Source: Diadema setosum (taxonomy: Eukaryota > Echinodermata > Echinoidea > Diadematoida > Diadematidae). From it: a stretch of DNA of 64,000 nt. The stretch spans positions 24,399,472-24,463,471 of the forward strand of contig NC_092696.1 in NCBI RefSeq assembly GCF_964275005.1, given 5' to 3'. Of the stretch, positions 23,282-63,890 are shown piece after piece. The notes beneath the pieces are model-generated. The model searched no databases. It was not told where the DNA came from and worked only from the letters and a program-made list of their open reading frames with translations. Position 1 is the stretch's first letter. Every line of letters begins with the position of its first letter. A program made the position numbers and the translations under genes.

Positions 23282-26200
23282 CTGAAATGGAAGATGTAAA
23301 TTAGAAATGGCATGGGTGAGAGTAAGACAGTCTTGTCAGAAGACAGATACAACCATCTACTGGTGCTGATAGGACAGCACAACACAGCCTTGTTACCTGT
23401 GAATGAATTACTTCCATTTGTCTACATCATCACATTTTCTTGACTTGTTAACAGACTGCATGGAATTGCCTTATAATCCGTGTCAAAACATGACAGCAGG
23501 CTTGCTTAAGTCGTCAAACAGCAATTTACCATTTCTCTTTTTCCATTAAATTTGAGAGAAATTTTGAGGTAAATAACATCAACTTGCATCCATGAAAGAG
23601 GCATAAGACAATGTCTCATACTTGAGTGTATGCGTCATACTGTCAACCTTAGTGTCACCCTAGAGCTATCCTCAGACAGGAAATAGATCAGCAAGACTGG
23701 AGTGAAAGTTGGATACAGTGATAACATCTTGTTAAGAAGATGACAAATGGCACAAGAAGGAGACATAAACACCGGTCACCATGTAAACAGGTTTTAGAAC
23801 AGGCCCCTAAAGACATTATGCATCACTGATCTGGAGTAGATCATTTCATGCTGTGAAGCCAGGATCCTATCAACTAACAGTCAAAGGGCTATCTCTGGTT
23901 CCCAGAAACCCTAAACAACTAAAGACCTCTGCATCCTATGTAGCATTGGTCCACCACCCAGCAGACTAGCAGTGTTAGCAGAGTCTGACTTCTCTACCAA
24001 ATCTTCAATCCCAAACCTGTTTGTATGAGACTCAAATCAAAATGGGCACAGCTTTACCCACTCTGTCAAACCCAGTCAATGATAAAAGGATAACTCTATG
24101 GTCATCTTCACCTAGTGAACACGTAAGACAAAGACCCACAAACCTGATGAAGAAGTGGATGTCAATGTAGACTGTGACTGTAGGACAATCTAGATATTTG
24201 ACTACCATCTGGTATGTCATTATCTATGTATTTCTAAAGTCTTTGAAATTTTGGAACATTTCCACAGTGAGAGGCTTGGCAGAGGTCTGGCTAATGTGGG
24301 TTCACCTTGCAACAAATTCTGTCTAGGATGGAAATGAAAGTGAACTTGTCAATATATGCAAGTGAAATTAACAACCAGGGGTGTTTTTAGCTGCACATAG
24401 TGACTTTGTAGACATTTTAATGACACTGTATATGCCTGCACCACATCTGCCCACACACTAGTACGTCGATACACATCTAGCGGACTGTACTACATGGAAG
24501 AAGAAGAAGAAGAAGAAGAATAAGAAGAAGAAGAAGTGGATGAGTTCTTGTTTTTTTTGGTTTTTTTTTTAAAAGAAAGAGCTCATCCAAGAAGAATTTA
24601 ACACATCACAAACCCCAAAGACTGAGAGATGCCAAAAGCCCAAAGCTTGATCACATGTGTAACACTGGACTGGAGAAGTGCAGTGACCTGAGAGAAAGAG
24701 AGAATCAACTTACCATATCAGTGAGATTGGTCAGGTTGGTAAGTGAGCCATCGGACACTACCTGCAGCATGGTGTGGTTGCCAACAGCAGCCTTCATAGC
24801 GGCTAGAGCAGCATCACGATTGAGAGCAGACACCATGGTCACCTGACGTGTGTGCCCATTGGCATCCTGGAGTATCAGTGTCTTTGGGTGGTTCTAGAAT
24901 AAGAGCACAACATTAACAATGAGGATATGAGAAACTTTGTGGGTCACGCTTTTCTATCTATTCTGATCTATTACTTAGCATGTTGTTCAATGTGGTACTA
25001 CAATGAATGCACAGATGAAGACAATGATCTATGATCTATATCATCTACTTTTGACAAAAAAGCATATCATGATGTGATAATTCAAAGTCAGAGTATAGTG
25101 CTGGAGTTACACAAAATGACGAATGTAAAAACAAAAAACATAAAAAAAAAATGTCGGAAAAAGAGGGCAGTATGAGGACATTAGACCTCAATGAGGGAAA
25201 GAGGCAGTGTGAGGACATCAGATCTTAATGAGGGAAGGAGGGCAGTATGAGGACATTAGACCTTTGAGGGAAGGAGGGCAGTATGAGGACATTAAAGGCA
25301 TAGTTTACCATTTGCAGATGAAACAAAAACCCAGCATTAGTGCTTTAAACTAGTTCTAAAATGCGAGTTAGGGATAGAAACAACCACTGTAAAAAAACTG
25401 AATCTGTATAATCGATGTGAAGTATTGTTAAATACACAAATTGTGAACAATAGTTATAATAAGAATACTTCCAGATTAAACCGTCTACAGTTACGGTTTA
25501 TTGAGAAAAATACTGATATCTCCTTATATTTTAGGCTTTATTGCCAAAATCTTATATGGTAGGTTGTTTTGTGATACAACAGACCTACACATATGCATCA
25601 AATGTGATATCTTGAACATTTTTAAAATCACTGCTCCCAAAGGTAAAGTGGACCTTTAACCTCAGTGAGGGAAAGAGGCAGTGTGAGGACATTAGACCTC
25701 AGTGAGGGAAAGAGGGCAGTATGAGGACATTAGACCTTCATGAGGGATGGAGGGCAGTATGAGGACATCAGACCTTAGTGAGGGAAAGAGGGCAGTATGA
25801 GGACATTAGACCTTCATGAGGGATGGAGGGCAGTATGAGGACATTAGACCTCAATTAGGGCAAGGGGCAGTATGAGGACATCAGACCTTAGTGGGGGAAA
25901 GAGGGCAGTATGAGGACATTAACCTCAGTGAGGGAAAGAGGGCAGTATGAGGACATTAGACCTCAGTGAGTGAAAGAGGGCAGTATGAGGACATTAACCT
26001 CAGTGAGGGAAAGAGGGCAGTATGAGGACATCAGACCTCAGTGAGGGAAAGAGGGCAGTATGAGGACATTAACCTCAGTGAGGGAAAGAGGGTAGTGTGA
26101 GGACATTAACCTCAGTGAGGGAAAGAGGGCAGTATGAGGACATTAGACCTCAGTGAGGGAAAGAGGGTATTATGAGGCCATTAACCTCAGTGAGGGAAAG

Positions 26201-29200
26201 AGGGCAGTATGAGGACATCAGACCTCAGTGAGGGAAAGAGGGCAGTATGAGGACATTAACCTCAGTGAGGGAAAGAGGGCAGTATGAGGACATTAGACCT
26301 CAGTGAGTGAAAGAGGGCAGTATGAGGACATTAACCTCAGTGAGGGAAAGAGGGCAGTATGAGGACATCAGACCTCAGTGAGGGAAAGAGGGCAGTATGA
26401 GGACATTAACCTCAGTGAGGGAAAGAGGGTAGTGTGAGGACATTAACCTCAGTGAGGAAAAGAGGGCAGTATGAGGACATCAGACCTTAGTGAGGGAAAG
26501 AGGGCAGTATGAGGACATTAGACCTCAGTGAGGGAAAGAGGGTAGTATGAGGACATTAGACCTTAGGGAAGGAATGAAAGCAGTATGGAAGCATTGGGCA
26601 GTGTAGAAGATATACTTTAGGGTATGATAGCACAAGATCTTTACAAGGGCATCTGCAGGTATGGTGACAAGAAAGCAGAACGAGGACATGAGGGTTATAT
26701 GAAAGCATCTTGATAATATTGCATGTCTTGCACTCCTTACCAGTGCCGTAGTCTGCACTCCATCTGTGAGAGTAGGTGTGACTAGGCTGCCTGCAGAGGA
26801 ACCCGGATTGCTGAGTGTTACCGTGGCAATCTGATACTCTGACTTTGATTTCTTACTGGGGGGAGATCCCAGGATTGAGACAATGTCTGGTCTGTCACCT
26901 ATTTAACCAAAGTAAGACCAATCAAAGACATGCAGAAATAAGTCATCTGTCAAATGAAGTCATGATTTTATTACAATATAATGGATTGCAAATGTATTCC
27001 CTGGTCTTCATTTGAAGAAATGAATGCGAACTCCAAAGGTTGGAATGCACTGGCTCACGCCCTGTGGTATAACTATCACTGCAAATATTTAAGACTGGGA
27101 GAACTCATAATCAATGTACATTTACCTTCCATAATAGTTCTTTCCTTGCCAGGTACAATTATAAATACTTCTATATTTAGGGTATGTGTCTTTGGAGGCA
27201 TCATGAGCATCAGGGAAAGGGACTTTAGAACTAATAAATGAAATGTCCACATGTGTATTGCGACAAATGATAATTTTGGTCACACTGACCAATACATCAT
27301 GGCACTTCTCATGTCACTGTACTTTCTTACAGTAATGTAAACCTCACCCTGAGTGATGGCTATCTCTAATCCATCAACGAGGGCGTCTTCCCCATGTGCC
27401 TGCCGCTTGTGCATGGCCAGTGTGGAGATCTGCCGGTAGTTCTTGCCACATGATGAACACATGTAGGGTTTAGAATGTGTGTGAACCACATGGTGCTTGT
27501 ACAGGCTTGAGTATTCTGTGAAGCGCTTGCCACAGCCAGCAACAGTGCACACGTAGGGTTTCTCACCTGTAGACAAATGATGAAAATCAAACAGAAAGAG
27601 TGAAGGAGTTGTTCAAGAGACTAACACATTATTAAGAGTGAAGGAGTTGTTAAAGAGACTAACACATTATTGTTAGTAGCCAGTCTCACATTTATATCCA
27701 GTAAACCTTTGTATCTCACAAAATCCATCATGAACTATGATCAACACAATACCATACAGTGAGTCACTAAATGGTGTCGTAATGACCTAAATTCTGGATT
27801 ACATTAAGTTTATATTTAATGTTCACTGTGTTCTTTATCCAGATATTTTCATAATATTCTCACAATATTTTCACAAGTGACTTTAGTAGCATGAAGTGAG
27901 ACTGCTCATATAAATGAGTGACAATAGTTTTAGCTTTGATGAAGAGGGCAAGCCTTTTTCCAACAATTCTCTTTAATTCATTAGTGGAAAATTGAGCAAA
28001 AAAATTTGGATTCCATCGTGATTTGAACCCGAGACCTCCGGATTGCTAGCCGGTGCTCTACCCACTGAGCTATAGAAAGCCCTAGTTCAGTTTCGTCCCA
28101 GAAACCCTAAATTCTCAATGCTTGAATGGTTGGAAGCTATAGAAGTGTGTTTGTGTGTGACACACACATACACACTTGAACCTGGCATAAACCCGAAGGA
28201 TAGTTCAACTTGGGGATAAATGCGAGGGATAAATGCAAGTTCTCTTTATTTTTTTTTTCACAAATCTTGGCAGTACCAGTAGATGGCACACTCAATATAA
28301 GACATTTGCTAGGCTGCTGATCTCTGTTGTTAAACCTCTTAACATGCTAAAATTCCTAGACACTAAATGACAAGTGTGGAACAGACTGTGTTTCTGCAGC
28401 TTCATAGATGATTTAAATTCAAGTAAAATACATGACTTTTTATTTTCTTTTATGTCAAAGGCCCACAGTTAATGTAGTACTGTTAAAGCTCTTATTTTAA
28501 GGAGGGTTTGATTTTTGTAAATTTCATGAATCACTGTTCTGTTGGGCCGCGAATTTAACAGGATACAAAAATATTGCTAATGGACAGGCATTAGTGCCTT
28601 TATGATAGCCTTGGTGACACATCAGGAAAACATCTCGTTAAAATGTCTGTGACCTCCTAATTCGTGAAAATATTTGTACATGAAAAAAAACCCCACCTTT
28701 TACAGTATGACATATCTCCTTTGGTATAAAAAAGAACCACCTGAACAAATGCAGTACACAGGAAGGTCAAATGAAAGTATATCAGGTCTTGAATCGGATT
28801 TTGATAAAATTTGATGAGCTGGATGCAGACTGACCTGTATGAATCCTCATATGGTTCTTGTAGTTGGTGGCACTAGCAAAGGCCCTACCACATCCTTCCT
28901 GAGGGCAGATGTAAGGTCGCTCCCCTGTGTGGGTTCGGATGTGCACCTTGCGGATATTAGATGTGGTGAAGGCCTTCTCACAACCCTCAAATGGACACTT
29001 GAACGGTCTCTCACCTGCCAGCAAGAAAAGTGAGTCATGAGAGAAGTTTCTTGTTGTCCTTGAAAGGTTAGTGTAGATTTTATACTCCATCATTTCTACA
29101 ACAGATATATGGTGCTATACAAATGCTGTGGATCATCATCATCATCATTTGATTTTGCCAAGCTTCAGCTTGGCAAAGTCAAATCAGACTAAAACCTCCT

Positions 29201-29210
29201 ATACAAATTT

Positions 29211-29250
<40 letters not shown>

Positions 29251-32200
29251 TTATTTCTCATATACACACAATGTTGTCAGAATTCTAAATGCAGACCAGA
29301 CTGCAAAAGGCATTGACAAAAATTGAAATTGGGTTATTATACTTTTCCTAATGAAAATGGGTTGAGATGTCAATATCTTTCATATCAGAATAATTATCAA
29401 TGTAATCATAATTGAGGAACATGAAAATACACAGAAAAACACTTAAAAAAGTCTTTAATGCAAGGACATAATTACTGCAAAACTTTATTCTTTGATAAAG
29501 GGTGGGGGTCCTGCCTGACTACCTGTGTGTGTTCTGGTGTGCTTCTGCAAGTCTCCTGATGTCTTGAACCCTTTACGACAACCTTCATGTGAACATCTGT
29601 ACGGTTTCTCTCCAGTGTGAACACGTGTGTGACTCTTCAAGCCATAGCCTGTAGCAAATGCCTTCTCACAACCAGGGTGTTCACATTTGTATGGTTTGAC
29701 GCCACTGTGTGATCTCTCATGAACCTATGAAATATATAGAACAACTCGACTTGCAAAATCAGGTTATACAATACGAAGCAAGGCTTTAAGTAAAGAAATT
29801 GCAGCTATCTCAAACTTTTTCAATGGATCTCAATTGAACAACCTACATCAAATGGTTTAGAAGAGAATGCAACACATTATTACAATGCCATGTCAGAGAC
29901 ATCTAAATATTCAAATACTTTTTCTTGCCCTTAAACTAATACAGCCATGTGATAACCCTGCAACAATGCAATTTACAAATCCTTGTTGTTGGGAATAATC
30001 AATAAGGTAACAATCATTCACAAAAACACTCAAAACCTGCCTACAATTCCTATTAGGGCTCGCTGTTTGCTCAGCCCCCCCCCCCCCCTTTGCTGTTGCT
30101 ATTTCACTCTTTTCCTTTCTTCATCCCTCTGTTGTTCCTTATCTTGCTTGATCTTGCCTCCTTATTCATCCTTTTCCCTCTATGTTGCCCCCCATGGTCC
30201 TCAGGATCATTACTGACCCTCCTCTGCCTTTTGTCTGTCCACCCTCCTGCCCAAATCCCCTCCCTTCACCTGTTGGGCTCCTTGCCCATGACCTCCTACC
30301 CTCTCCTTTTGTTTTCTTTGTTCTGTGCCCCTAGCTTGTCCCTGACTGTTCTTGTTGAGTGAAGTCCTTATATGTGATTGCTTTCCCTGCCTGTTTGTCA
30401 TTATGCCTTTGATGAAGATTCTGCTAGGATCGAAAGCTCCGGCCCCTTTTGACTCCACTTTACTCAATAAGCCAGTTCGTAATTAGCTCATGGGCACGTT
30501 GGTACAAATGACCTTTCTTTTTTCTCAGTTGGTTAGGCACTTCAATCATTTTCAAAGAGACATTATGGGTACTGGTAAGCTTGCCCGACGTAATAATTCA
30601 TGAAATTCGTGTTCAAACAATGAATGAACTTGCATAGACCAGGTGACCAGAATGGTCCGTCAATCAAGTCGGGAAGCATCCATTTCATTGTTTTGCACTG
30701 AATGCATTAAAAAATTGTTTTATTCATATTGCCAAATACCAGGTTTGCTGTCAGGTGGATGTACTGGCAAGCAACATGTACAAGGATTGCATGAATAATC
30801 ATTGTATGACAGATGCTTATCTCAGTGAATTTAAAAACCAACTTGCCTCTTGGTACAAATGACCTTTTTCTGCTCATGCGCAAAGTGGAACTACGAACTG
30901 GCTTATTGGCTTGCCACTTTTGGATAAGCAGTTTTCAGCAGCTTTTTTTTTTTTTTTTTCTACACTAAAGATAAAGAGACAACAAACCTTTAAATGATGA
31001 GATGCTGTGTACATCCTGCCACATCCTTCATGCCGACACTGGAACGTCTTGGTTGTTAGTACCTCCACTTTGTTAGGCATCACTTGGCCTACAGATCCTA
31101 CTGTTACTCTCATTGGCTGATATTATAGAAACAAAGAAAGCAAAGAACATGACACAGGGAGAGATAATGAAGGGAAGAAAGGGACAAAGGGGGAGAGAAA
31201 GGGGTGGGGAGATGGAAAGAGAAAGGAGACAAGAGGGTGAGTGGAGGTGAAAAACCCTTCCATGAATTCCCATGTTACAATGCAATACTGCCCTGTGAAA
31301 CAATTAGTTGTATTTTGCTCTTCATCTTGTCTTTTGAAATTAAAAACTGCACTTTTTTTTATAACATCTTGTTATGCAGTTTGCACTGAAAGAAATACAT
31401 CACATTAATGTGAATAACATAAAAAACATGTGCAATATGGAAATGTAACTAAAAGCACATCTCTCTTCAGACATAGTTTAGTACATGATAAACACAGCTT
31501 TCCTCTCTCAAACTGATATTATGTCTGTAATGAACCTTGTACCAAAGGGTTCCATGACATTTGCTCCCATGAAATACTGGCACATTAAGCCAAACATAAA
31601 TTCTACCAACAAACATAACCTTAACCCTAAACCTAATCCTCACATCAAACTAAATCTAAAACCCATCACAACCCTAACCCTATTAAAGGCAAAATTTACA
31701 ATTTGCAGATGAAATAAAAACCCAGCATTAGTGCTTTAAAATAGTTCTAAAATGTGAGTTAGGGACAGAAACAACCACTGTAAAAATTTGAATCCATATA
31801 GTTGATGTTAAATACATTGAAATACACACAATGTGAACAATAGTTATAAAAAAAATGTTTTCAGACTATATGGTTTAATGAGAAAAATACTGATATCTCC
31901 TTATATTTTAGACTTTATTGTGAAAATTTCATCTGGTATGGCATTTTATGATACTACAGACCTACACATATGCATCAAATGTGATATCTTGAACATTTTT
32001 AAAATTACTGTTCCCAAAGGTAAACAGGACCTTTAAAGTCCTTGGAGAAAACAAGACCGGAGCAAATTGTGACAGGAGTGAATGTTGTGTCACTGTACCA
32101 ATGACACAAACATTATTTTGAGCTAAAGCTGGCAATGAAAGGGCTCACTTGTAAATCACTTACTGATGTGAAATCATGCTCTCCTGTTGTAAGCTGCAAT

Positions 32201-35200
32201 GCACCTCCTCCTTGCTCTCCAGAATTCTGCATTAGAATGATATCAACTCATAAATCAAGAGTTGAAATTCTGTCCCTGTGAAAAGGAGTCCTTATGATAT
32301 GACTACATGTATGCAACACATGATACATTACAATTATCATGTAAAACCCAACAACTGTATGATGTGCAATATTGATATTCATTCAAAACTATAATGAAAA
32401 TGAAAGTAAACTGACTAAGTGTGTACCACTCTGAACATACTTCAGAGGTAATCTAAACATTTCTATCTGAAGTCTGATGATTAGTAAAACCACTATTTCA
32501 CACAGTTTGGCATATTAAAGAATATATTGTAACACAGTCATGCACAGAATACATCAGTCCTTTCAGCATGGTGGATCATGGAAGCATATACCGCCTGACA
32601 GTCAATACTTTATGCATTTCACTGTTATATCAAGTATTATTGCAAAATATTTACAAGACGGTGATCATAACAAAATGTACCCCAGTTCAGGTTGAATGGA
32701 TTTGACAGTAGTCACATAAAACAATGACTCCTGTATACTTTTTATTTTATTTCATTATTATTATTATTTTTTTTTTGAGGGGGAGTGGATTCACTTAGAC
32801 TACTGGTGAGGCTAACCTGAGCTGCATAATGCTCCAAAACATTGAGTGAGCTTGCATCCATTGGGTCATCTGAAGGAAAGGCACCTAGAGTGTGGAAACC
32901 AATGACAGGGATAATGTGGTCAAAATGTTGTGGAACGTGATTCACATCATTCACTTGGGTCCCATGTGTTCAGAACTGTTTTCTTTACAACAAGGCAAGT
33001 GCCAAAATGTGTCTCGCCCTTGTGGTGACCATCCACTCCCCAAGGGACATCTACCATCCAAGTTTGGTCACAAACGGACCTATGGATCAAAAGTTATGAC
33101 CCATAATAGAAACGTGCCATAAAAACATAACATTGGGCTCTAAAAGTTTGTTGACCCATGCTTGTGACCATTGACCTTGTGGTGACCATCCACTCCCCAA
33201 GGGACATCTACCATCCAGGTTTAGTCACAAATGGAGTTATGGATCAAAAGTAATGACCCATAATAGAAACGCGCCATAAAAACTTAACATTGGGCTCTAA
33301 AAGTTCGTTGACCCATGCTTGTGACCATTGACCTTGTGGTGACCATCTACTCCCCAAGGGACATCTACCATCCAAGTTTGGTCACAAATGGAGTTATGGA
33401 TCAAAAGTTATGACCCATAATAGAAACGCGCCATGAAAACTTAAAATTGGGCCCTAAAGTTCGTTGACCCCTGCCTGTGAGCTTTGACCTTGAGGTGATC
33501 TTCTTATATGGTAAAATGTGAAACTTTGTATGACCCCTCTTCCTTCGAAGTTTGATTGCAATTGAAGCCCAGAGCAAAGAGTTATTGAAGTTTTTGTAGT
33601 GTTACGGACAGACGACGGACGGACGGACGATGGACGGACGACGGACAGACGCCGCAGGCGATCCCGTAGTCTCCCCTCACCTCCGGTGAGCTCGACAATA
33701 AACTAGTTGTCATGGAAAAGCACAAGAAGACTGTAACAAGTATTAGGGCACGACAGATTCTTTGTTCTTCTGTGACTATGCAGTCCAGTTCATGCTCTAC
33801 ACACATTATTGCACAGGGGACAGGGCATCAAGGTCTACATTCTAAGACAATTTATGTTCTAATTATGTTCAAGCACTGTCGTGGAAAAACATGTTAGGTC
33901 GAGGGTGCTTTACCTAAATAAGGCACATAGGGTAATCAAGGGTATAATGTCAGCTAATATGGCATCTTTTGATACCCCGTAAGATAGGTGTTCTTGTAAT
34001 GTGACTTTGCTTTTACTGTTTTCATAATTGTTAATGGTATTGCACTATATACTCATCAATTGATAATGAAATAAAAATATGAATACTTCTCTTGTCTTCT
34101 TCACTGCCACACAAGTTTGACTGCATGAAACTGCAGGAATCCTAAAATGAGGAATTCTGGTCTTGACATGACTACAATAGTTGCCTTGAATCTTAAAACC
34201 TCAAATTGTCTGGTTCAGTGTTAGACTGCATCACAAGCTATCATTGCAAAAAGGTAAAAAGCACAAATTATGGACAGATCCATAACTAAGTCATTGCTTA
34301 CTACAGCACCTATAGAGGAGACACATATATGAATAAGAGCTATCCTTCACTTGACCCTTTAGTCACAGAAGAAACAAACATACTTTGAGATTGGTCAAAA
34401 TCAGTGACGTGCGTCTGAATCAAGGCTGTTGTTCCATCTTCAAGCTGCACAGCTTGGACACTGTCACCATCAACTGGAATAAAGGAAACGACAATTAGTG
34501 TAGTCATTATTATTTGTAATGGCTGGTAATGGCACTAATTATTGTGGGTTTAACAGGTCAGACAAATACTTCACATAGAAACAGGAATTTTACAATACAA
34601 GTTGTCTTTATCAGTATCATTTACAATCATCACAATAACAACATTACAATGTTTAGTAACTCTGTAAGGAAGTTGACTTGCAGTACAAGTGCAGGTGTGA
34701 TATAGGAAGCTGACACTCCAAAAGAAAGATGAGATTAGGTAGGTTACGGGAAAGAGAGAAGTAGTGATGGTGTTAAAATGATTTGTCCTCACAGCAATGT
34801 CCAATATCACATCGTACTTGACCCCTTTAAGAATTAAAATTCTATGATGGAATGAATCCTACAGAAATGGCTGGTGAATTCTGGCTAAAATCACAAGGGG
34901 AGAGAATTTCAATGTCAGTAAATGATCTATCAGGGCAATAGAGAGACATTGCAAGAGAGTCAAGTTAATCAAAGAGCTGTAAAATCTCTCTTTAACCCTC
35001 ACTTGTTCTCATGTGCCTATCAAAATTGGTTTGTTTGCATTAATAACATAAGAGGAGTTTTGTGCTCTCATATGAAAAGGAGAGAAAGTAAGCTTTTCTG
35101 TCATCCTCATTGGACTGAATATTGGATGAATGAATGACATTGAAGCTGTCTAAAACTTATTACACATCAAATTTTTAAATGATATGAAGCTTGGTCTCAA

Positions 35201-37123
35201 CCCAAGGCAGCCTCAGACAAATAATTGTACACAAATTTTAGCAAATCAGGAACCCTGATAATACAAGCACTTGATGCTTACTGATCGACTGTGGCATCAA
35301 GGTGCATGATACTGAAATCTCAGTCACTCAATCTAGTTTGTGACCATAGTACTGTATACGCCATATATTTCGTGAGTCTAAATTTTCGCGAATCGGGAAT
35401 TCCCGACGATTTCGCGAGTGGTTAAATTCGCGAGTGTGGAGTCCTGTACTGAACGGAAAAATGTACACGCGTACGTAACATTCACATCAGGGTCAGAGTC
35501 AATAATTTCGCGAATAGCATCCGACTCACGAAATTCGCTAAAATAAAAACCTCGCGAAATATTTGGCGTATACAGTATATCTTTTGTCAAGATGCCACAC
35601 TTCTCTCACCTTTAGCGTTGGTGCGTAGGATGTATGCTGTAGACCCATCTTCCAGTTGCACTGCTTGACTATCTTCAAACCCTAGGAACCAACAATGCCA
35701 TTTTAAACATTCACATTGATTTTTGCACAGTAGCATTCTAAGTCATTAAATTCCATTATTCCAGTGTTTAACATTCAGTTTCATTGTTCCAGAGTTCATC
35801 CTTACTGTCAAGAAATCTACTTGATTCATTCAGGCATTTACTTGATTTATATTAATTCTTGCTAACTTTAGCACAATGTTGCCATGTTAATTAATGCCAA
35901 TCTCTCTAAACTCAGGATGATTACCAATCAACAATATACATGTGTCACTGACTATAAAGAATGCTCACCTTTCCCACTGAGGTTATGAATGAATGCTGTA
36001 GTTCCATCTTCCAGTTGAACAGCCTGTCCTTCCAGGAGACTACCATCAGCTGGGCAGGAAGAGATGTGATACAATATATCACAAGATATTATTTGAATTT
36101 TGGCAATTTTCTCCATTTCCTCTAAATTGATGATCGCCAGTTGCCATTTGTGCAATCATCCCTGTTGGTCACTTGCTACATCATTATTTTAGTGGCTGCA
36201 GTCTGCTGATGACATAATGAATTAAAGCTTCTATGGATAAACACATGCATGCCAACATGTACCAAGTGATCTCCCCCCCCCCCCCTCTCTCTCTCTCTTT
36301 CTCAATGTACAGACACCTTGAGGGATTTTTGGCTTTACCACACATCAGAGAAGACATTTTAGGCATCTGAAATATATTTAAGTTCACTGGTTGTTACTTC
36401 ACAAATCTACTTTGTAAAACAGTTTGCATCTGTATCAACAGGAAAATTACATACATGCACACAAATGGATACCTTTTTGTTGTATTATGGCTGTGGAACC
36501 ATCAGTCAGCTGGACAGCCTGCAGGTTGGTAGATTCTTCCCCAAGACTTAACTTTGCTTCTTCCAAAATGGAGGTTCCAGCCACCACACTGGCTGATTCA
36601 TCATCCTCTGCCCCGACCTCATCCTCTGTCTTCAGGAGACAACAAAACAGTATAGTATCAGTTAGAACAATGGGAGTACTGGTCTTATATGGAAGTTGCC
36701 CTCAAAATGACATGCATGATTTTAACCAAAATATTGAACTGTCACTGTGATCTAATTTCACATTGTTTTCTGCATGAAAAGTGCAAATAGACTTGAAAAC
36801 ACAGGAAGTGTCAAGAGCATGACATTGTAGGACTTAAAACATCAATTCACATTTGCTTCATTCTTTAATCAGAACAGGCACTAAACTTCGTCAGTGGACT
36901 ATCCTCATTTTATTTGTCTAGCAGAATGATTGGCTCTTAACCAAGCACTCTTGGCCACTAGTCTTTGCTTCTATAACCTACTAGTATCACTTACTTCAGG
37001 ATGTATCTGCAGTTGACCATCTTCTCCATCTGATGCCTGTGAAAGGAGCATTCCAATCACCTCCCGGTCCTGACCAACCTCTGACTCGACATCATCCTTT
37101 TCCATCTCTAAATCTTCATCCAT
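23153..37123 (-). CDS. ZNF143: Zinc finger activator ZNF143/ZNF76 (Staf), complete coding region in 14 exons
   Basis: In transcript order the coding exons are 37123-36995, 36629-36473, 36049-35969, 35681-35610, 34473-34384, 32869-32817, 32226-32164, 31116-30988, 29724-29523, 29014-28835, 27566-27348, 26898-26741, 24893-24714 and 23281-23153. They sum to 1842 nt, 613 residues and TGA, with every junction in phase. Human ZNF143 has 638 residues by memory, so the size fits. Residues about 79-176 hold four '[13 protein letters not shown]' repeats, the Staf mRNA-promoter activation motif. Residues 242-443 hold seven zinc fingers (six C2H2 of CxxxxC type and a last CxxC one) with the Staf linkers. 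The rest is a Ser/Thr/Gln-rich tail ending in an acidic stretch. The family is nuclear, binds Staf sites (core CCCANAATGC), and activates snRNA, tRNA-Sec and many housekeeping promoters, with a role in promoter looping. Vertebrates have two paralogues, ZNF143 and ZNF76; this may be their single co-orthologue. The start ATG (37123-37121) has a good context (GAGATGG) and follows an open but non-conserved lead. Confidence 0.95.
24497..24540. repeat. (GAA)n microsatellite
   Basis: About 14 GAA units with one TAA interruption, in the last ZNF143 intron. Unstable in length by nature. Confidence 0.9.
24714..24893 (-). CDS. ZNF143: ZNF143 exon 14 (C-terminal activation region)
   Basis: 180 nt between 'ttattctag' and 'gtaagt', phase 0 at both ends. 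It reads [40 protein letters not shown] and [20 protein letters not shown]. The ILQD..G...QVTMVS pattern echoes the 'LISQDGTQHV' repeats in the vertebrate C-terminal region. Confidence 0.9.
25156..26575. repeat. Minisatellite, 37-38-bp unit with higher-order pattern
   Basis: Roughly 28 units of the type 'cctcagtgagggaaagaggg' + 'cagtatgaggacatta'. Unit variants (ttagacc, ttaacc, tcagacc, gtagtgtg, agtgagtg) recur in the same order about 337 bp apart, for instance the 'gtgagtgaaag' unit at about 25965 and again at about 26302. The array is split by a MITE at 25293-25658. It lies in the ZNF143 intron before exon 14. Confidence 0.95.
25293..25658. mobile_element. 366-bp dispersed element inside the minisatellite (copy A)
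   Basis: Ends are TAAAGGcatagTTTACC and GGTAAAgtggaCCTTTA, an imperfect inverted repeat. It aligns over its whole length with 31684-32035 (shared 'cagacctacacatatgcatc', 'gatatcttgaacattttt'). Array units resume on both sides, so it is a clean insertion. Confidence 0.9.
26741..26898 (-). CDS. ZNF143: ZNF143 exon 13
   Basis: 158 nt, acceptor 'gttaaatag', donor 'gtaagg'. It reads [40 protein letters not shown] and [13 protein letters not shown] (the first Gly is split). It includes a Ser-Pro/Lys stretch, SPPSKKSK, that could be a nuclear localisation signal. Confidence 0.9.
27348..27566 (-). CDS. ZNF143: ZNF143 exon 12 (zinc fingers 6 and 7)
   Basis: 219 nt, phase 1 at both ends. Finger 6 is [20 protein letters not shown] (VVH follows) and finger 7 is [20 protein letters not shown] (AH follows), joined by the unusual linker THSKPYM found in all ZNF143/ZNF76 proteins. 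The acidic stretch [15 protein letters not shown] comes after the fingers. Confidence 0.97.
28006..28085 (-). mobile_element. tRNA-like sequence, likely SINE head or tRNA pseudogene
   Basis: Read on the minus strand, 'tatagctcagtgggtagagc' is a good D-arm/A box, the anticodon loop contains TAGCA, and 'cgggttcaaatc' is a good B box. The two acceptor halves do not pair and the T stem has a mismatch, so it is not a working tRNA. It is more likely the head of a SINE. Confidence 0.65.
28835..29014 (-). CDS. ZNF143: ZNF143 exon 11 (zinc fingers 4 and 5)
   Basis: 180 nt, phase 1 at both ends. Fingers [20 protein letters not shown] (RTH follows) and [20 protein letters not shown] (RIH follows), joined by TGERPYI. 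The helix residues TTSNIRKVH and ASATNYKNH are the same as in human ZNF143. Confidence 0.98.
29217..29242. repeat. Poly-A tract
   Basis: An uninterrupted run of about 26-28 A in a ZNF143 intron, perhaps the tail of an old retroposed sequence. Confidence 0.8.
29523..29724 (-). CDS. ZNF143: ZNF143 exon 10 (end of finger 1, fingers 2 and 3)
   Basis: 202 nt; begins [14 protein letters not shown], completing finger 1, then [20 protein letters not shown] (RVH) and [20 protein letters not shown] (RTH). Helices match human ZNF143 ([18 protein letters not shown]). The first linker, HSGVKPY, differs from the usual TGxRPY form. Confidence 0.98.
30470..30903. mobile_element. MITE with AGCCAGTTCGTA ends
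   Basis: Ends AGCCAGTTCGTA and TACGAACTGGCT lie between TA dinucleotides (30468-30469, 30904-30905). A direct internal repeat, 'ttggtacaaatgaccttt', sits near each end. It lies in the intron between ZNF143 exons 9 and 10. Confidence 0.75.
30988..31116 (-). CDS. ZNF143: ZNF143 exon 9 (start of finger 1)
   Basis: 129 nt, phase 0. It reads [40 protein letters not shown] and HLK. The vertebrate counterpart ends CGKLYTTAHHLK at the same residue, so the intron that splits finger 1 is conserved. Confidence 0.96.
31684..32035. mobile_element. 352-bp dispersed element (copy B)
   Basis: Same family and orientation as 25293-25658, with ends TAAAGGcaaaatTTAC and GGTAAAcaggaCCTTTA. It lies in a ZNF143 intron between exons 8 and 9. 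Confidence 0.88.
32164..32226 (-). CDS. ZNF143: ZNF143 exon 8
   Basis: 63 nt, phase 0 at both ends: [20 protein letters not shown] then S. Supported by frame, splice sites ('aatgcag', 'gtaagt') and place between conserved exons rather than by similarity. Being 63 nt it could be skipped without a frame change. Confidence 0.75.
32817..32869 (-). CDS. ZNF143: ZNF143 exon 7
   Basis: 53 nt: [17 protein letters not shown] after a split Asn codon. It matches the vertebrate 'DPDTISALEQYAAKV' block that precedes the fingers. Acceptor 'cttcag', donor 'gttagc' (a weaker donor). Confidence 0.85.
32990..33706 (+). mobile_element. Helitron-like element with three ~157-bp core repeats
   Basis: The unit starting 'tgtggtgaccatccactccc' occurs at about 33021, 33179 and 33335. 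A (GGAC)n/(GACGGAC) tract follows at 33605-33650, then the hairpin CTCACCTCCGGTGAG (33676-33690), 12 bases, and CTAG before TT at 33703-33706. That is the layout of Helitron-derived HINE elements carrying satellite-like cores. It shares its start (acaaggcaag) and core with 50729-51669. No Rep/helicase gene. Confidence 0.75.
34384..34473 (-). CDS. ZNF143: ZNF143 exon 6 (fourth activation repeat)
   Basis: 90 nt, phase 1 at both ends: [20 protein letters not shown] then HVTDFDQSQ. The donor is 'gtatgt'. A multiple of three, so it can be skipped in frame. Confidence 0.93.
35352..35575. mobile_element. MITE with CTGTATACGCC ends (copy 1)
   Basis: Ends CTGTATACGCCATATATTTC and its complement (GAAATATTTGGCGTATACAG), with TA on both sides. 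The inside is rich in TTCGCGA. Copy 2 lies inverted at 39450-39673. Both are in ZNF143 introns. Confidence 0.88.
35610..35681 (-). CDS. ZNF143: ZNF143 exon 5 (third activation repeat)
   Basis: 72 nt, phase 1 at both ends: [20 protein letters not shown] then NAK, with a split Gly before it. Acceptor 'gttcctag', donor 'gtgaga'. Skippable in frame. Confidence 0.93.
35969..36049 (-). CDS. ZNF143: ZNF143 exon 4 (second activation repeat)
   Basis: 81 nt, phase 1 at both ends: [20 protein letters not shown] then HNLSGK. The core [15 protein letters not shown] is identical to a repeat in human ZNF143 as I recall it. Skippable in frame. Confidence 0.95.
36473..36629 (-). CDS. ZNF143: ZNF143 exon 3 (first activation repeat)
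   Basis: 157 nt, acceptor 'ctcctgaag', donor 'gtatcc'. It begins [20 protein letters not shown], an acidic stretch, and ends with the repeat [17 protein letters not shown]. The repeat carries Thr where the others have Glu. Confidence 0.92.
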
Positions 37124-42680: not shown

Positions 42681-42781
42681 ACACCCCTCCTCATAACACT
42701 ACAGTAAAATTTAATTAACACGTTAAAATTTTTTACCTAATGTTACAACAGGCTACATACGATAACTAACTGTGTTACAGT

Positions 42782-43433
42782 TAACTACACGCAGCCGCGA
42801 CAAAACGCGGCTACACCTCTATTCCTTCGCAGACGTTGTCATTTTTCAGTGTGGTTGTGCGACTCCTTCATGAATATCTTTATTAATCGTGGAAAACTAA
42901 AATACAAGGAATTATCGTAATCTATGATAATCATTCAATAATCGATATGCGATTTTTTGTTTAATTACGTCAAAAACTCACCGAAATCTGTGGCTGAAAT
43001 CAGGTTTGTAAACGTCCTTATTGCTTCACTCCTCATCTGCGTGTTATTATGAATGGCATTCACTCTCGTATGCTACAACGTACAACGTAGGTAGTCGGAG
43101 AGGCGCCCTCTAGCTCTCCGACTACCTACGTTGTACGTTGTAGTATACGAGAGTGAATGCCATTCAAATAACACGCAGATGAGGAGTGAAGCAATAAGGA
43201 CGTTTACAGACCTGATTTCAGCCACAGATTTCGGTGAGTTTTTGACGTAATTAAAGAAAAAATCGCATACTGATTATTGAATGATTATCATAGATTACGA
43301 TAATTCCTTGTATTTTAGTTTTCCACGATTAATAAAGATATTCATGAAGGAGTCGCACAACCACACTGAAAAATGACAACGTCTGCGAAGGAATAGAGGT
43401 GTAGCCGCGTTTTGTCGCGGCTACGTGTAGTTA
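42782..43433. mobile_element. 652-bp near-perfect fold-back element, MULE-like
   Basis: Two arms of about 315-320 bp are reverse complements with only a handful of differences (about 98% by eye). They meet at a loop near 43100-43115 (gcgccctctagct). The outer ends read TAACTACACG and CGTGTAGTTA. The direct duplication TGTTACAGT lies on both sides (42773-42781 and 43434-43442), 9 bp and perfect. Long inverted repeats with a 9-bp duplication point to the Mutator (MULE) group. Each arm has its own small hairpin near the end, GTAGCCGCG-acaaaa-CGCGGCTAC. No transposase. It is in ZNF143 intron 1, about 0.8 kb from the first exon. Confidence 0.9.
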
Positions 43434-44088
43434 TGTTACAGTCATCATGGTAGATCTACACACATGGTCTTTTTCAGCTTTTTGAACAACGATTCCTGTT
43501 AAGAATTGTATTAACACATCGCTGACGATTGTTATTATAAATTTGAGCTTGCTGCTGCTCGCGATCTCGTAGTTATTCGATATGCTCTGCTCTGCACGCA
43601 CAGCAGCACAGCTACAGCTAGACTAGGGAACCGCCCCAGCGAAGCATAATACGTACGCCAACGCTGCGGGGAAGAAGAGCTGGAAGCACTCGGTGCAAAA
43701 CCCCCACTCTCGCAGCTTATCAACATTTTGGGAGTTTTTAGCCATTACTCACAACAGATAGCATGTCGACAATTTCTCGGAAAAGCAGACATTAATATGC
43801 AACGATTTTGTCCAGAAAGGGCACAAATCTGAACTTGATTCGACTTGAGAACTGTTCATCTTTTCACCAATGTGACAAGCAGACTATAAAATGTACGTAT
43901 TTAGCAGAAAATAAAAAGGAATGTTGGGATATTTGGCCGGGATTTCTGGGTAAGCCCACGATGCAACGGGAGGAAAAATCCCAAACTTGGCCCGGCAACC
44001 TGTATACTGTCAAGAATAAAACACTCGCTATTTCCCTCAGACATATTATACACGTTTAGGGGCGAGTATGCCGACAACAGCTTCGCTA

Positions 44089-44575: not shown

Positions 44576-44647
44576 TCCTTGGTAGTATAGTGGTAAGTAT
44601 CTCCGCCTGTCACGCGGAAGACCGGGGTTCGATTCCCCGCCAAGGAG
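44576..44647 (+). tRNA. tRNA-Asp (anticodon GTC)
   Basis: The 72-nt sequence folds as a full cloverleaf. The acceptor TCCTTGG pairs with CCAAGGA (discriminator G at 44647). The A box is 'tagtatagtggtaag', the anticodon arm is CCGCC-TGTCACG-CGG type with GTC, and the B box 'ggttcgattcc' is perfect. It matches the animal tRNA-Asp pattern almost base for base. It looks functional and is independent of the ZNF143 gene 250 bp away. Confidence 0.95.
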
Positions 44648-44901: not shown

Positions 44902-47900
44902 CACTGGCGTAGCCAGGGGGGGGGGGGGGGGGGGCGATGGGGGCGGTCGCCCCCCCTAAGATTTGGACCAAGGAGTTGGGAGGCGGAAAAAAAATGCGTG
45001 TATACTGTATGCATGCACATGAAGCGGGTCTCCTTTGCAGCCTTTCATCAAATAAGATATATTTTTTTGAATATTTCACTCAAAGTGTGCACCAGATCGT
45101 TGAATTTCAATTCAAAATATGCAAAATCTCTCGTGCTTGGGAGGGGGATACCCCCTCCCAAACCCTCCCCCTCTTTGCCGCTTTCCCTAGCTAAGTACAC
45201 TTTTTAGATTAAAAAAAAATTCTGAATAATTCTGAGTGCACAAGACTTTTCACTAATATTCCGAAAACTGAAGGTTCCCTCATGTATAAGGGGAATTTCC
45301 CCTTTTAATCGACCCTTTCCTCCCTCAGCCCCCCCCCATCATTTTTTTTTTTTTTTTGATTACCCAAATGTTGATTCCATCAAATATGCTTATTATGCGT
45401 AGGCCCTATACGAGATATCTCAATTTCAGCCTTAAAAAGATACAAGTACTGTACAAGCTCCATCGGAAGGGAAGAGTGGAGATAACACTCGCCAACGCCT
45501 TCTTCCTGTTCCCCCCCCCCCCCCGCCATGCAAAGAAGTAGACTGTGGCTATACCAAGATCGCTTTATTTCAATTCTAAAAACGCAAAAGCTCCGCGAGC
45601 GGGAGGGGGAATCCCCCTTCCCCCAAGTTCTACCTCACTAGACTTTATACATACGCACAGATGGTGCACATTCGGAATAAGAGCTAAATTCCGTGATTTT
45701 AACACTTCGATGAAAAAGTGTTGCACCAAAAATTTGCACCAGATCGCTGAATTTCAGGTCTGAAAACGCAAAATCACCTTCGTGTGGGAGGGGATATGCC
45801 CCTATCTACACCCTCGTGTGCATGCTTTTTCTGTTTGATTGCTGAACAGACAGCGTTCATGATATTCAGTGTAAGAATTAATACAAGAAGACTAGTGTGT
45901 TTGAGTTATACTGTTTTATAGGCAAATTGTTCAATAATAATCTACAATAAAATATACGGCAACCTTAAACAAGTGGGACTGTTTCAACTCGTTAAAACAC
46001 GCAAAACCATGCATCAAATTGCACCATTTGCAACATCAAAATGCAAAAAGTTCTCACCGTAGGAGGGGGGACACCCCCTCCCACACCCTCCCCTACCCCC
46101 TCGCTCGCTCCGCTCGCTCGGGTTCAGTCGAGTTCGTGATATACAGTGAAAAGAATTAATACAAGAAGTGTATCTAAATTATACCATTTTATAGGCAAAT
46201 TGTTCAATAATAATCTACACTAAAATATACTGCTACCTTAAACAAGTGGGACTGTTTCAACTCGTTAAAACACGCAAAACCATGCATCAAATTGCACCAT
46301 TTGCAACATCAAAATGCAAAAAGTTCTCACCGTAGGAGGGGGGACACCCCCTCCCACACCCTCCCCTCCCCCTCGTTGGCTCCGCTCGCTCGGGTTCAGT
46401 CGCGTTCATGATATTCAGTGAAAAGAATTAATACAAGAAGTGTATTGGAATTATACCATTTTATAGGCAAATTGTTCAATAATAATCTACACTAAAATAT
46501 ACTGCAATCTAAAACAAGTGGGACTGTTTCACGTCGTTAAAACACGCAAAAACATGCATCAAATTGCACCATTTGCAAAACCAAAATGTAAAAACTTCTC
46601 ACCGTGGGAGGGGGGTAAACCCCCCTCCCACACCCTCCCCTACCCCCTCTCTCGCTCCGCTCGCTCGGGTTCAGTCGCGTTCATGATATTCAGTGAAAAG
46701 AATTAATACAAGAAGTGTATTGGAATTATACCATTTTATAGGCAAATTGTTCAATAATAATCTACACTAAAATATATTGCAATCTTAAACGAGTGGGACT
46801 ATTTCACGTCGTTAAAACACGCAAATACATGCATCAAATTGCACCATTTGCAAAATCAAAATGTAAAAAGTTCTCACCGTGGGAGGGGGGTTTCCCCCTC
46901 ACCCTCCCCTACCCCCTCGCTCGCTCCGCTCGCTCCGCTCGCTCGGGTTCAGTCGCGTTCATGATATTCAGTGAAAAGAATTAATACAAGAAGTGTATTT
47001 GAATTATACCATTTTATAGGGAAATTGTTTAATAATAATCTACACTAAAATATACTGCTACCTTAAACAAGAGGGACTGTTTCACGTCAATAAAACGCGC
47101 AAAAACATGCATCAAATTGCACCATTTGAAACATCAAAATGCAAAAAGTTCTTATCACACCCTCCCCTCCCCCTCGCTCGCTCCGCTCGCTCGGGTTCAG
47201 TCGCGTTCATGATATAAAATATACTGCAATCTTAAACAAGTGGGACTGTTTCACGTCGTTAAAACATGCATCAAATTGCACCATTTGCAAAATCAAAATG
47301 TAAAAAGTTCTCACCGTGGGAGGGGGGAAACCCCCCTCCCACACCCTCCTCTACCCCCTCGCTCGCTCCGCTCGCTCGGGTTCAGTCGCGTTCATGATAT
47401 TCAGTGAAAAGAATTAATACAAGAAGTGTATTGGAATTATACCATTTTATAGGCAAATTGTTCAATGATAATCTACTCTAAAATATACTGCAATCTTAAA
47501 CAAGTGGGATTGTTTCACGTCGTTAAAACACGCAAATACATGCATCAAATTGCACCATTTGCAAAATCAAAATGTAAAAAGTTCTCACCACACCCTCCCC
47601 TACCCCCTCGCTCGCTCCGCTCGCTCGGGTTCAGTCGCGTTCATGATATTCAGTGAAAAGAATATTTGAATTATACCATTTTATAGGCAAATTGTTCAAT
47701 AATAATCTACACTAAAATATACTGTTATCTTAAACAAGTGGGACTGTTTCATCACGTCGATAAAACGCGCAAAAACATGCATCAAATTGCACCATTTGCA
47801 ACATCAAAATGCAAAAAGTTCTTATCGTGGGAGGACCCCCTCCCACACCCTCCCCTCCCCCCTCGCTCGCTCCGCTCGCTCGGGTTCAGTCGCGTTCATT

Positions 47901-48221
47901 ATATTCAGTGAAAAGAATTAATACAAGAAGTGTATCTAAATTATACCCTTTTATAGGCAAATTGTTCAATAATAATCTACATCAAAATAAACTGCTACCA
48001 TAAACAAGTGGGACTGTTTCACGTCGATAAAACGCGCAAAAACATGCATCAAATTGCACCATTTACAACATCCAAATGCAAAAAAGTTCTTACCGTGGGA
48101 GGGGGGACACCCCCCTCCCACACCCTCCCCCCCTCGCTCGCTCCGCTCGCTCGGGCTCGGTCGCTTCGCTCCCTCGCAGACTAACCGCCCCCCCTAAGAT
48201 GAAATCCTGGCTACGCCGTTG
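44902..48221. mobile_element. 3.3-kb hAT-like element filled with a satellite array
   Basis: The left end CACTGGCGTAGCCAGG and right end CCTGGCTACGCCGTTG form an inverted repeat. The flanks GTGGTAAG (44894-44901) and GTGGTAAG (48222-48229) are a perfect 8-bp target duplication, the hAT hallmark. No transposase. The inside is G/C-rich near both ends and mostly tandem repeats of about 270 bp. Confidence 0.85.
45950..48170. repeat. About nine tandem units of ~190-280 bp (satellite inside the hAT-like element)
   Basis: Each unit has 'aagtgggactgtttca', 'catgcatcaaattgcaccat', a GGGAGGGG/CCCCTCCC near-palindrome, 'tcgctcgctccgctcgctcg' and 'attataccattttatagg'. Units differ by deletions (some lack the GGGAGGGG part). 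More diverged units with 'gcaccagatcg' lie at about 45085-45200 and 45730-45830, so the array grew from one side. Confidence 0.92.
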
Positions 48222-49190: not shown

Positions 49191-49235
<45 letters not shown>

Positions 49236-49238
<3 letters not shown>

Positions 49239-49482
49239 GAGTTTGTTTGCAAAAACCGATAAGTCCATATTTGCCAAATGGAGATATTTGCGATTAAAGT
49301 TCAAGAAAAATAAAGGGAATATTAAGAAAAATTTTGCTTCTTTTGACCATAACTTCAAAAATATACTTTTATATGTAGTGACCAATATATCATTTAAAAG
49401 GTATTGTTTTGTACTTTTTGACAGAGATCGTACTTCAAAATCTTCGAAAATGGACTTATCGGTTTTTGCAAACAAACCCTTC
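49236..49482 (+). mobile_element. MITE with GAAGNGTTTGTTTGCAAAAA ends in a (TA)n tract (copy 1)
   Basis: The ends GAAGAGTTTGTTTGCAAAAA and its near-complement make an inverted repeat of about 35 bp that continues through 'ccgataagtcca'. (TA)n tracts lie directly outside on both sides, as expected for insertion at TA. About 247 bp, no real coding sense. Confidence 0.85.
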
Positions 49483-49513
<31 letters not shown>

Positions 49514-49788
49514 AGTAACAAAACTGGAACAAAGTTCATGCTGTATCACCAACGGTTTATTTCTGCACACACAGTTTCAAGCATCTCACCGCCCTTTCTC
49601 AAGTGTTGATAAAGGGCGGCGAGACGCTCAATATATTCATATACAGTATAATGCTTGACACTAATTAAACTTCTTCTTTTGGTGGTCCGATTGGGACACA
49701 AACATAAATTTTTCTTTCAAAAGTAGTGGCCTGGCATCTATTTCTGGTGGCCCTGGGTCATAGGGGAACTGCTAATGTCGAGTCCTGA

Positions 49789-49844
<56 letters not shown>

Positions 49845-49847
<3 letters not shown>

Positions 49848-50088
49848 GGGTTTGTTTGCAAAAACCGATAAGTCCATTTTTGAAGATTTTGAAGTACGAT
49901 CTCTGTCATAAAGTACAAAATAATACCTTTTAAATGATGTATTGGTCACTACATATAAAGGTATATTTTTGAAGTCATGGTCAAAAGAAGCAAAAATTTT
50001 CTTATTATTCTCTTTATTTTTCTTGACCTTTAATCGCAAATATCTCCATTTGGCAAATATGGACTTATCGGTTTTTGCAAACAAACGC

Positions 50089-50091
<3 letters not shown>
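49845..50091 (-). mobile_element. Same MITE family, inverted (copy 2)
   Basis: Nearly the same 247-bp sequence in reverse orientation, again inside (TA)n (49796-49844 and 50092-50134). The two copies form a long imperfect inverted repeat about 0.36 kb apart. Confidence 0.85.
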
Positions 50092-50135
<44 letters not shown>

Positions 50136-50728: not shown

Positions 50729-51669
50729 AACAAGGCAAGCGCCATAATGTGTCTCACCCATTCGCGTACAATTTCTTGTACGCGAATGGGATATAACAGA
50801 TAAAAAAAAGAGATATAACAGATAAAAAGAGATATAAAGGGGTAAAAATTTATGGCAAAAAAGAAAAGTGCCATAAAAACTTAACATTGGGCCCTTAAAG
50901 TTTGTTGACCCATGCTTGTGACCATTGACCTCATGGTGACCATCCACTCCCCAAGGGACATCTACCATCCAAGTTTAGTCACAAATGGAGTTATGGATCA
51001 AAAGTTATGACCCATAATAGAAACGCGCCATAAAAACTTAACATTGGGCTCTAAAAGTTCGTTGACCCATGCTTGTGACCATTGACCTTGTGGTGACCAT
51101 CCACTCCCCAAGGGACATCTACCTTCCAAGTTTGGTCACAAATGGAGTTATGGATCAAAAGTTATGACCCATAATAGAAACGTGCCATAAAATCGATACA
51201 GCTCGTTATTCCGAAGGCTCTTCAGCCCGAAGATTCGTTATTCCGAAGGTTCGTTATTCCGAATTTCATTTTCGGATTAACAAATCTTTGGAATAACGAA
51301 CCTTCGGAATAACGCCACAAATGTTCGGATTAACGAACCCTTACTCATTTTCGGATTAACGAACCTTCGGAATAGCGAACCTTCGGAATAACGAACAGCA
51401 CCCATAAAAACTTAACATTGGGCCCTAAAGTTCATTGACCCCTGCCTGTGAGCTTTAACCTTGAGGTGACCTTCATATACGGTAAAATGTGAAACTTTGT
51501 ATGACCCCTCTTCCGTCGAAGTTTGATTGCAATTGAAGCCCAGAGTAAAGAGTTATGGAAGTTTTTGTAGTGTTACGGACAGATGATGGACGGACGGACG
51601 GATGACAGACGAACAGACGCCGCAGACAATCCCTTAGTCTCCCCTCACCTCCGGTGGGCTCAACAAAAG
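50729..51669 (+). mobile_element. Helitron-like element, second copy of the 32990-33706 family
   Basis: Same start (acaaggcaag, then aatgtgtctc), two core units of about 156 bp, a GACGGACGGAC tract near 51590, and the 'cctcacctccggtgggctc' hairpin. The terminal CTAG is not kept. A different fold-back MITE (51193-51403) is inserted in it. Confidence 0.72.
51193..51403. mobile_element. MITE of the GTTATTCCGAAGG type nested in the Helitron-like element
   Basis: Ends 'gctcgttattccgaagg' and 'ccttcggaataacgaac' are inverted. The inside repeats 'ttcggattaacgaac'. ATAAAA stands on both sides and may be the target duplication. The host core unit continues after it. Confidence 0.7.
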
Positions 51670-63320: not shown

Positions 63321-63890
63321 TTTAAAGGGACGATAAACCCCAAGAACAATGTGGATTGAGTGAAAGCAGCGACATTAGTAGAACACATCAGTGAAAGTTT
63401 GAAGAAAATCGGACAATCGATGCAAAAGTTATGAATTTTTAAAGCTTTGGTGTTGGAACCGCTGGATGAGGAGACTACTAGAGGTTATGACGTATTAGTG
63501 GACTACAATATCAAGAAAATATGAAGAAAATACTACAAAAATCCATTTTTCATGAAAATTACAAATTCCATCAACTTGATATTGACATATGTTAAGGGTA
63601 GCAATTATTCCCCCTGCTTTCTGAAAGCGGTTGGTCCACTGCTCTTTCATAATTCTAGAAAAGTGAATTTTTGTTGAATATCCTTTATATTTTCTTTGTA
63701 TTGTTTTCCACTCATACGTCATATCCTCTAGTAGTCTCCTCATCCAGCGGTTCCAACACCAAAACTTTAAGAATTCATAACTTTTGCATCGATTGTCCGA
63801 TTTTTCTCAAACTTTCACTGATGTGTTCTACTAATGTTGCTGCTTTCACTCAATCCACATTGCTCTTTGGGTTTACCTTCCCTTTAAAAG
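63321..63890. mobile_element. 570-bp fold-back element with TTTAAAGGG ends
   Basis: The left arm from 'tttaaagggacgataaaccc' and the right arm ending 'ccctttaaaa' are inverted copies for about 180 bp at roughly 90% or better, and remain alignable almost to the centre near 63625 ('gctttctgaaagcgg'). Shared blocks include 'gtggattgagtgaaagcagc' and 'ggaaccgctggatgaggaga'. No clear target duplication. Older relatives are at 42589-42680, 50150-50345 and 59540-60060. Confidence 0.88.

Follow-up and report, generated by a model that had tools for sequence, protein, structure and literature searches.

The 652-bp near-perfect palindrome at positions 42782-43433 of the window, the 64,000-nucleotide stretch of Diadema setosum DNA analysed here (C12:24399472-24463471, in a genome of 912.7 Mb and 102 contigs), is an insertion of mobile DNA whose target duplication has been made at many independent sites. 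We consider that the element is probably a non-autonomous cut-and-paste DNA transposon generating 9-10-bp duplications, and that its fold-back form unites two left ends (LE) of an asymmetric element that begins with TAR-CTACACG-hairpin on the left and carries a different TARC-hairpin on the right.

Direct reading and an inverted-repeat computation define an outer arm pair (42782-43048/43167-43433) of 267 nt and an inner arm pair (43050-43102/43114-43166) of 53 nt, both 98% complementary. The inverted ends are about 320 bp each: the left arm (42782-43102, plus strand) starts with TAACTACACG, and the inverted right arm (43114-43433, minus strand) terminates in CGTGTAGTTA. Six mismatches and 2 gap positions distinguish the two arms of the window copy (L061), which leave between them an asymmetric centre of 11 nt (43103-43113) that was also compared between copies. 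A hairpin search located a tip hairpin in each arm, GCAGCCGCG-ACAAAA-CGCGGCTAC with one mismatch on the left (42791-42814, plus strand) and a perfect GTAGCCGCG-TTTTGT-CGCGGCTAC on the right (43401-43424, plus strand), and a perfect direct repeat of TGTTACAGT abuts both ends of the palindrome (42773-42781 and 43434-43442, plus strand). The palindrome with arms of about 320 bp, the terminal mini-hairpins and the 9-bp duplication described in the earlier note are hence all borne out. The predicted RNA fold of the whole palindrome reaches -570.7 kcal/mol with 317 base pairs, compared to a mean of -149.8 kcal/mol (sd 7.1) for shuffled controls, none of which (0/20) attains this stability. Tandem Repeats Finder at its default threshold reported no tandem array between 38614 and 45853, and at that threshold the arms therefore show none of the internal tandem repeats of Drosophila-type fold-backs (FB, Galileo, Tetris).

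A genome search with one arm, as proposed in the earlier note, returned many copies: a left-arm query of 310 bases gave at least 79 matches, with 40 of 409 candidates scored. In a fetched sample of 40 fold-back loci, counting the window's own copy, perfect duplications of 9 bp (21/40), 10 bp (9/40) and 8 bp (1/40) were observed, the remaining loci having an imperfect duplication (3) or lacking two recognisable ends (6). The combination expected of a MITE or fold-back, a short element with inverted ends and perfect 8-10-bp duplications, is therefore present at 31 of the 40 loci, and the 9-bp length first read in the window is the most frequent one but not the only one. Only one pair among these 31 loci (L047/L048) has common flanks and represents a single insertion; the two lie in opposite orientation on C7 and C6, respectively, within a duplicated segment. 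The copies typically run from TAACTACACG to CGTGTAGTTA, and a second subfamily has TAGCTACACG instead. Copies at independent sites thus support the view that the palindrome is a fold-back transposon that inserted here and duplicated its target.

The copies also bear on the age of the family. Two of 652 positions distinguish the window copy from L022. L030, L031 and L032 share exactly the same 659-bp sequence and each sits in its own flanks (L030 lacks a perfect duplication), and the identical 644-bp copies L026 and L027 likewise have different flanks. Such identity in different flanks indicates that the family moved recently. The near-identity of the two arms, by contrast, was rejected as a means of dating: in an alignment of 33 copies, each arm carries its own set of diagnostic states, recurring in most main-subfamily copies, and these arm-specific differences, being common to copies, deprive arm identity of any value as a clock. 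Mean distances were 2.9% between the arms of one copy and, from copy to copy, 2.6% when all arms are compared and 2.1% (minimum 0) when only matched arms are; since the distance within a copy exceeds that between copies, the arms had already diverged in the master copy. The fold-back has spread as one unit, and it is copy-to-copy identity, unlike arm identity, that dates it. The recent insertion proposed in the earlier note accordingly stands, but not on the arm identity from which it had been argued.

The left end is not confined to palindromes. Its 17-base terminus, TARCTACACGNAGCCGC, occurs 483 times in the genome (241 forward, 242 reverse; reversed-pattern control, 0), and the first 100 of these places were listed with their positions. 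We inspected 20 loci with unpaired LE termini, extending about 8 kb inward and holding 21 such termini, for 12 of which the far end is marked by a perfect 9-10-bp duplication. Eight of them are asymmetric elements of 694-756 bp with 9-10-bp duplications, bearing LE at one end and ...GGTCAGGCTA at the opposite end; L090 has ends of the same two types over 1064 bp; L082 is a 2042-bp element combining LE with a third end, TAACTGCGACCAGCCCC; and the micro-elements L074 and L088 measure 49 and 64 bp. A perfect duplication marks no far end for the other nine; one of these, in L080, belongs to a pair spanning 2298 bp whose duplication has one mismatch. The right end GGTCAGGCTA, which reads TAGCCTGACCAGAC when inverted, is unlike the left end beyond TARC, and by eye the two ends of these relatives have only TARC and a hairpin in common. 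Seventeen of the 21 termini, including all eight asymmetric elements and L082, align with the window element, and the alignments mostly extend to about base 301-319 of that element at 85-97% identity. Because the relatives pair LE with a different right end, the parsimonious reading of these sequences is that LE, about 300 bp long, belongs to an asymmetric element and that the window palindrome would be two such ends joined tail to tail. The description of the window element as a pure fold-back thus holds for the LE-LE palindrome itself, but its kin include asymmetric elements. At a further locus (L075), a solitary 25-bp LE remnant is flanked by ACCCCCTCC on either side, as judged by eye, and resembles the scar of a single end. 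No autonomous partner was recognised in the 20 loci of 8-10 kb around single ends, nor, by eye, any transposase-like frame among the 45 longest open frames of the fetched loci, several of which resemble reverse transcriptases.

At the other extreme of size, a search for two LE termini facing each other across 10-40 bases returned 31 places in the genome (control, 0), with relics that span 44-72 bp and mostly lie between duplications. Eight of these places hold one 72-bp sequence with identical flanks, indicating one insertion copied inside a larger repeat, and the 72-bp relic was rejected as proof of mobility for that reason. Flanks were read at 25 of the 31 places, representing 18 distinct sites: 15 have perfect 9-10-bp duplications, L105 has one with two mismatches, and L109 and L110 have none. 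L109 and L110 are palindromes that resemble a single LE hairpin extended outward on both sides, with 0 and 1 mismatching pairs, and they alone present inverted flanks (6 and 9 bp) without a direct duplication; no inverted run longer than 3 flanks any of the remaining 16 distinct micro-sites or of 34 fold-backs. The inverted flanks of L110, a 49-bp LE palindrome, measure exactly 9 bp (GTATAGGCC ... GGCCTATAC), in a setting where 15 of the 18 micro-sites have direct duplications. Palindromy alone does not cause inverted flanks, as five other palindromes with one mismatching pair (L062, L101-L104) have direct duplications.

The six commonest sequence classes account for 72 of 110 LE ends, and in all six a hairpin stem starts at base 10-12, with inner stem and loop sequences that differ; some rarer LE ends fold poorly, and one (L080) has lost the hairpin. 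By eye, the right end and the third end present other sequences, yet also TARC, a few bases and a stem. As far as their sequences reveal, several end types follow this one plan. A structural scan for TARC, a stem and a 9-10-bp duplication recovered 7 pairs, some overlapping, in 249,222 bases, compared to 0 pairs for each of five control tetramers; the loci scanned had mostly been picked for LE ends, and neither the window's own copy nor the LE-RE elements were recovered. It also yielded further end types, two of which have 756+790 and 857+842 occurrences genome-wide (reversed controls, 0). With 100 places listed per scanned pattern, the first 42 Mb of C1 contain 188 listed ends belonging to these two types. 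Of these ends, 116 form 59 facing pairs, defined by orientation and a distance below 1200 bp, and the same listed ends form 6 outward-facing pairs within 1200 bp. Among the ends listed, 27 of the 59 facing pairs span 53-100 bp and 26 span about 580-850 bp. Searches of open-access papers turned up no description of hairpin ends of this sort, a negative that argues only weakly for their absence from the literature. We tentatively suggest, as a possibility that we hold to be somewhat improbable, that these elements belong to a large transposon group in which hairpin-bearing, mutually non-homologous ends (TARC, spacer and stem) replace terminal inverted repeats (TIRs), and in which the hairpins would serve as the recognition feature and drive both the birth of fold-backs by snap-back and the hairpin-to-hairpin deletions leaving scars of about 50-100 bp, which, on extrapolation from the 27 short pairs on C1, would probably number in the hundreds.

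Target preferences were assessed on 61 unique insertions with perfect duplications. In the test for palindromic targets, symmetry around the duplications is near 0.25 at most positions. At the second base outside the 9-bp duplications, the two sides are complementary in a fraction of 0.55 (38 sites), a peak that the 10-bp duplication sites (n=13) do not share. Raw counts over 9-bp duplications show T at position 3 in 12 of 21 and A at position 7 in 10 of 21.

Some of the loci examined contain further elements with hairpin ends. A RecQ-like helicase first exon (L082:863-1153 and L092:870-1172) matches the DEAD profile with E=0.0023, below the cut-off of that family, terminates in a splice-donor-like GTGAGT and has 13 genome copies at 95-100% identity, with a distant match in a 1711-codon open frame at G000:C5:31730451. 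This exon was rejected as a gene of the fold-back family itself, since it sits in another element of 2.6 kb that has the same end plan and is nested at L082 in a fold-back-like copy that has the duplication GGGTACCTC; the RecQ-bearing element has the duplication TACACAGCC in L093 and, by eye, none in L092. Two different hairpin-ended elements lie in tandem at L082:221-2963 and at L088 near 9103-9250, and in each tandem the same 9-bp duplication (GGCTGACCA in L082, GTCTAGACC in L088) occurs three times, between and flanking the elements, as if the second element had inserted exactly beside the first. The word TSD is absent from the portion of PMC12368964 that was checked for tandem insertions with one duplication. 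Furthermore, unrelated elements (the 2.6-kb RecQ-bearing element at L093:548-3115 and a 46-bp relic at L108) are inserted at the same spot, TACACAGCC, which resembles the end of a third element (TAACTATACACAGCC|CAGTCGC) and is a possible hot target.

Several other explanations of these data can be weighed. A local inverted duplication, arising at the window site and involving no insertion, would account for near-perfect palindromy and might recall the two micro-palindromes elsewhere that have inverted flanks, but the window palindrome has perfect direct 9-bp flanks, and near-identical copies occupy many unrelated sites, each with its own duplication. These copies refute that origin for the window locus, and we regard it as extremely improbable. 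The relics could be mobile minimal transposons instead of scars, in which case some 18 bp per end would suffice for transposition, and both the identical 52-bp relic found at four sites (L062, L101-L103) with four different 9-bp duplications and the bimodal sizes of the facing pairs of the other end types speak for this. Nevertheless, the single copied insertion behind the 72-bp relic removes eight places from that argument, and once the 72-, 52- and 54-bp groups are set aside, no two of the remaining 18 places have the same sequence by eye, as independent local deletions would predict. On balance we doubt the mobile interpretation, and the 44-72-bp relics are, judging from their sequences, probably for the most part deletion scars.

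The nature of the mobilising enzyme is a separate matter. The fold-back is likely mobilised in the manner of a MULE, and whether it is itself a non-autonomous MULE of the Mutator superfamily, with hairpin ends recognised by a genomic MULE transposase, we judge to be evenly balanced. The observed duplications of 9-10 bp fall within the 8-11 bp that MULEs make, some of which lack TIRs (PMC6446971, consulted in part), and most fold-backs have been assigned to Mutator according to the sections of PMC4079207 that we consulted. In addition, the MULE domain PF10551 has 27 matches over cut-off in the genome, six of which lie in open frames 623 to 1203 codons long. Against this assignment, no coding element with these ends was read, and no MULE domain lies near them among the ends listed: when the 27 domains were compared with 29 listed ends of one LE variant, only one fell within 100 kb, at 15 kb, and by eye five MULE loci on C2-C4 have no LE end within 10 kb among the first 100 listed. 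The fit to MULEs proposed in the earlier note thus extends to duplication length and to the presence of MULE domains in the genome, but not to a transposase linked to the ends. Processing of the ends as single-stranded hairpins, in the way of Helitrons or IS200/IS605, by a system that is HUH-type or assisted by a helicase, would be in line with hairpins near both ends and with the RecQ-like helicase exon carried by one family of the same end plan; that family, however, is a separate 2.6-kb one nested in L082, and the elements make 9-10-bp duplications, which to our knowledge neither Helitrons nor IS200/IS605 do. Helitrons are marked by the lack of a target duplication and by 5'-TC...CTRR-3' ends, whereas the ends here read TARC...GYTA. 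We therefore consider such a system very improbable.

For a cut-and-paste transposon whose fold-backs derive from asymmetric elements, a sequence of events can be proposed. DNA synthesis would snap back at a terminal hairpin and copy the end together with a few flanking bases in inverted orientation, giving rise to a palindrome. The immediate product would have inverted flanks, and a later transposition would convert it into a fold-back between direct duplications; on this proposal, based on two loci, the inverted flanks at L109 and L110 would be the expected remnant of snap-back synthesis from a terminal hairpin. Deletion between terminal hairpins at the original insertion site may have produced most 44-72-bp relics, and a transposase supplied in trans, most likely MULE-like, would move the fold-back. 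If transcribed, the palindrome could form a predicted stem of about 317 pairs, although no function is needed to explain the element.

The window also contains the minus-strand exons of what we take to be a ZNF143-like gene (about 27.4-36.5 kb), identified by tblastn with a human ZNF143 query. The host gene, with zinc-finger exons and N-terminal repeats, was delimited at 27388-37123 (minus strand) by tblastn, zinc-finger Pfam matches and a start assigned by eye, the first likely coding segment lying near 37.12 kb. Some 5.7 kb separate the recognised coding sequence from the palindrome on its upstream side, which places the palindrome in a 5'-UTR intron or in intergenic DNA; the location in ZNF143 intron 1 given in the earlier note is plausible. 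Other features of the window include a tRNA-Asp (GTC) gene-like sequence (44576-44647, 62.6 bits) 1.1 kb from the palindrome, an inverted repeat at 63321-63888 with 236-nt arms (90% complementary, 96 nt apart), and another at 49192-50135, whose arms measure 322 nt, are 96% complementary and have (TA)n runs at the borders of each arm. Arrays of tandem repeats occupy 45853-48164, 25659-26587, 33018-33498 and 50862-51192, their periods being about 275/270, 38 and 157 bp; by eye, the 157-bp units near 33 kb resemble those near 51 kb.

Searches beyond the genome were also performed. Two pattern scans of viral contigs matched 7 and 6 contigs, with 7 hairpin matches lacking the element's flanks, and BLAST of the element against the 13 viral-contig loci gave no match longer than 18 bases. 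Distant blastn searches with the left arm against phages and with the whole element against plasmids returned no match, five literal sequence strings had no occurrence in the literature searched, and literature searches for sea-urchin fold-backs and for the smallest transposons yielded nothing further to the point.

The origin of fold-back transposons is an old question, and the single genome considered here holds its supposed steps: relatives with asymmetric ends, palindromes of a single end between inverted flanks, LE-LE fold-backs that have spread with direct duplications, and very short scars of two ends. Since long palindromes are fragile and, when transcribed, can form long double-stranded RNA, how many there are matters for genome stability and RNA editing in this animal. 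One suggestion is that fold-backs evolve from different lineages through transposase loss and TIR elongation (as cited in PMC4079207, consulted in part).

Among known systems, and within the parts of each source consulted, the asymmetric relatives recall non-TIR MULEs in having no extended TIRs and in the 8-11-bp duplications of the latter (PMC6446971); terminal hairpins are not mentioned in the portion of that source covered, and no transposase is linked to the Diadema ends. Tm1, a Mutator/Foldback element of root-knot nematodes, resembles the Diadema family in combining fold-back and MITE-like copies, and its duplications are of 8-10 bp, mostly 9 (45/53 complete elements), with no clear target consensus; its TIRs, however, consist of 13-15-bp tandem repeats, unlike the Diadema arm, a single unit of about 320 bp with a tip hairpin, and it has a predicted Phantom-like transposase, whereas none is linked to the Diadema ends (PMC3169594). 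Tetris of Drosophila virilis, tentatively assigned to Mutator, is likewise a non-autonomous fold-back with 8-10-bp duplications and no autonomous copy found, but it has a middle domain and internal tandem repeats, in contrast with the 11-nt centre and asymmetric relatives of the Diadema element (PMC4079207). Galileo of Drosophila shares structural dynamism and copies consisting purely of long inverted ends, and differs in its P superfamily membership and 7-bp duplications (PMC3573991). Set beside these systems, the fold-back is of an ordinary kind; less ordinary are its relatives, with their hairpin ends and lack of TIRs, and the graded series that the palindromes form.
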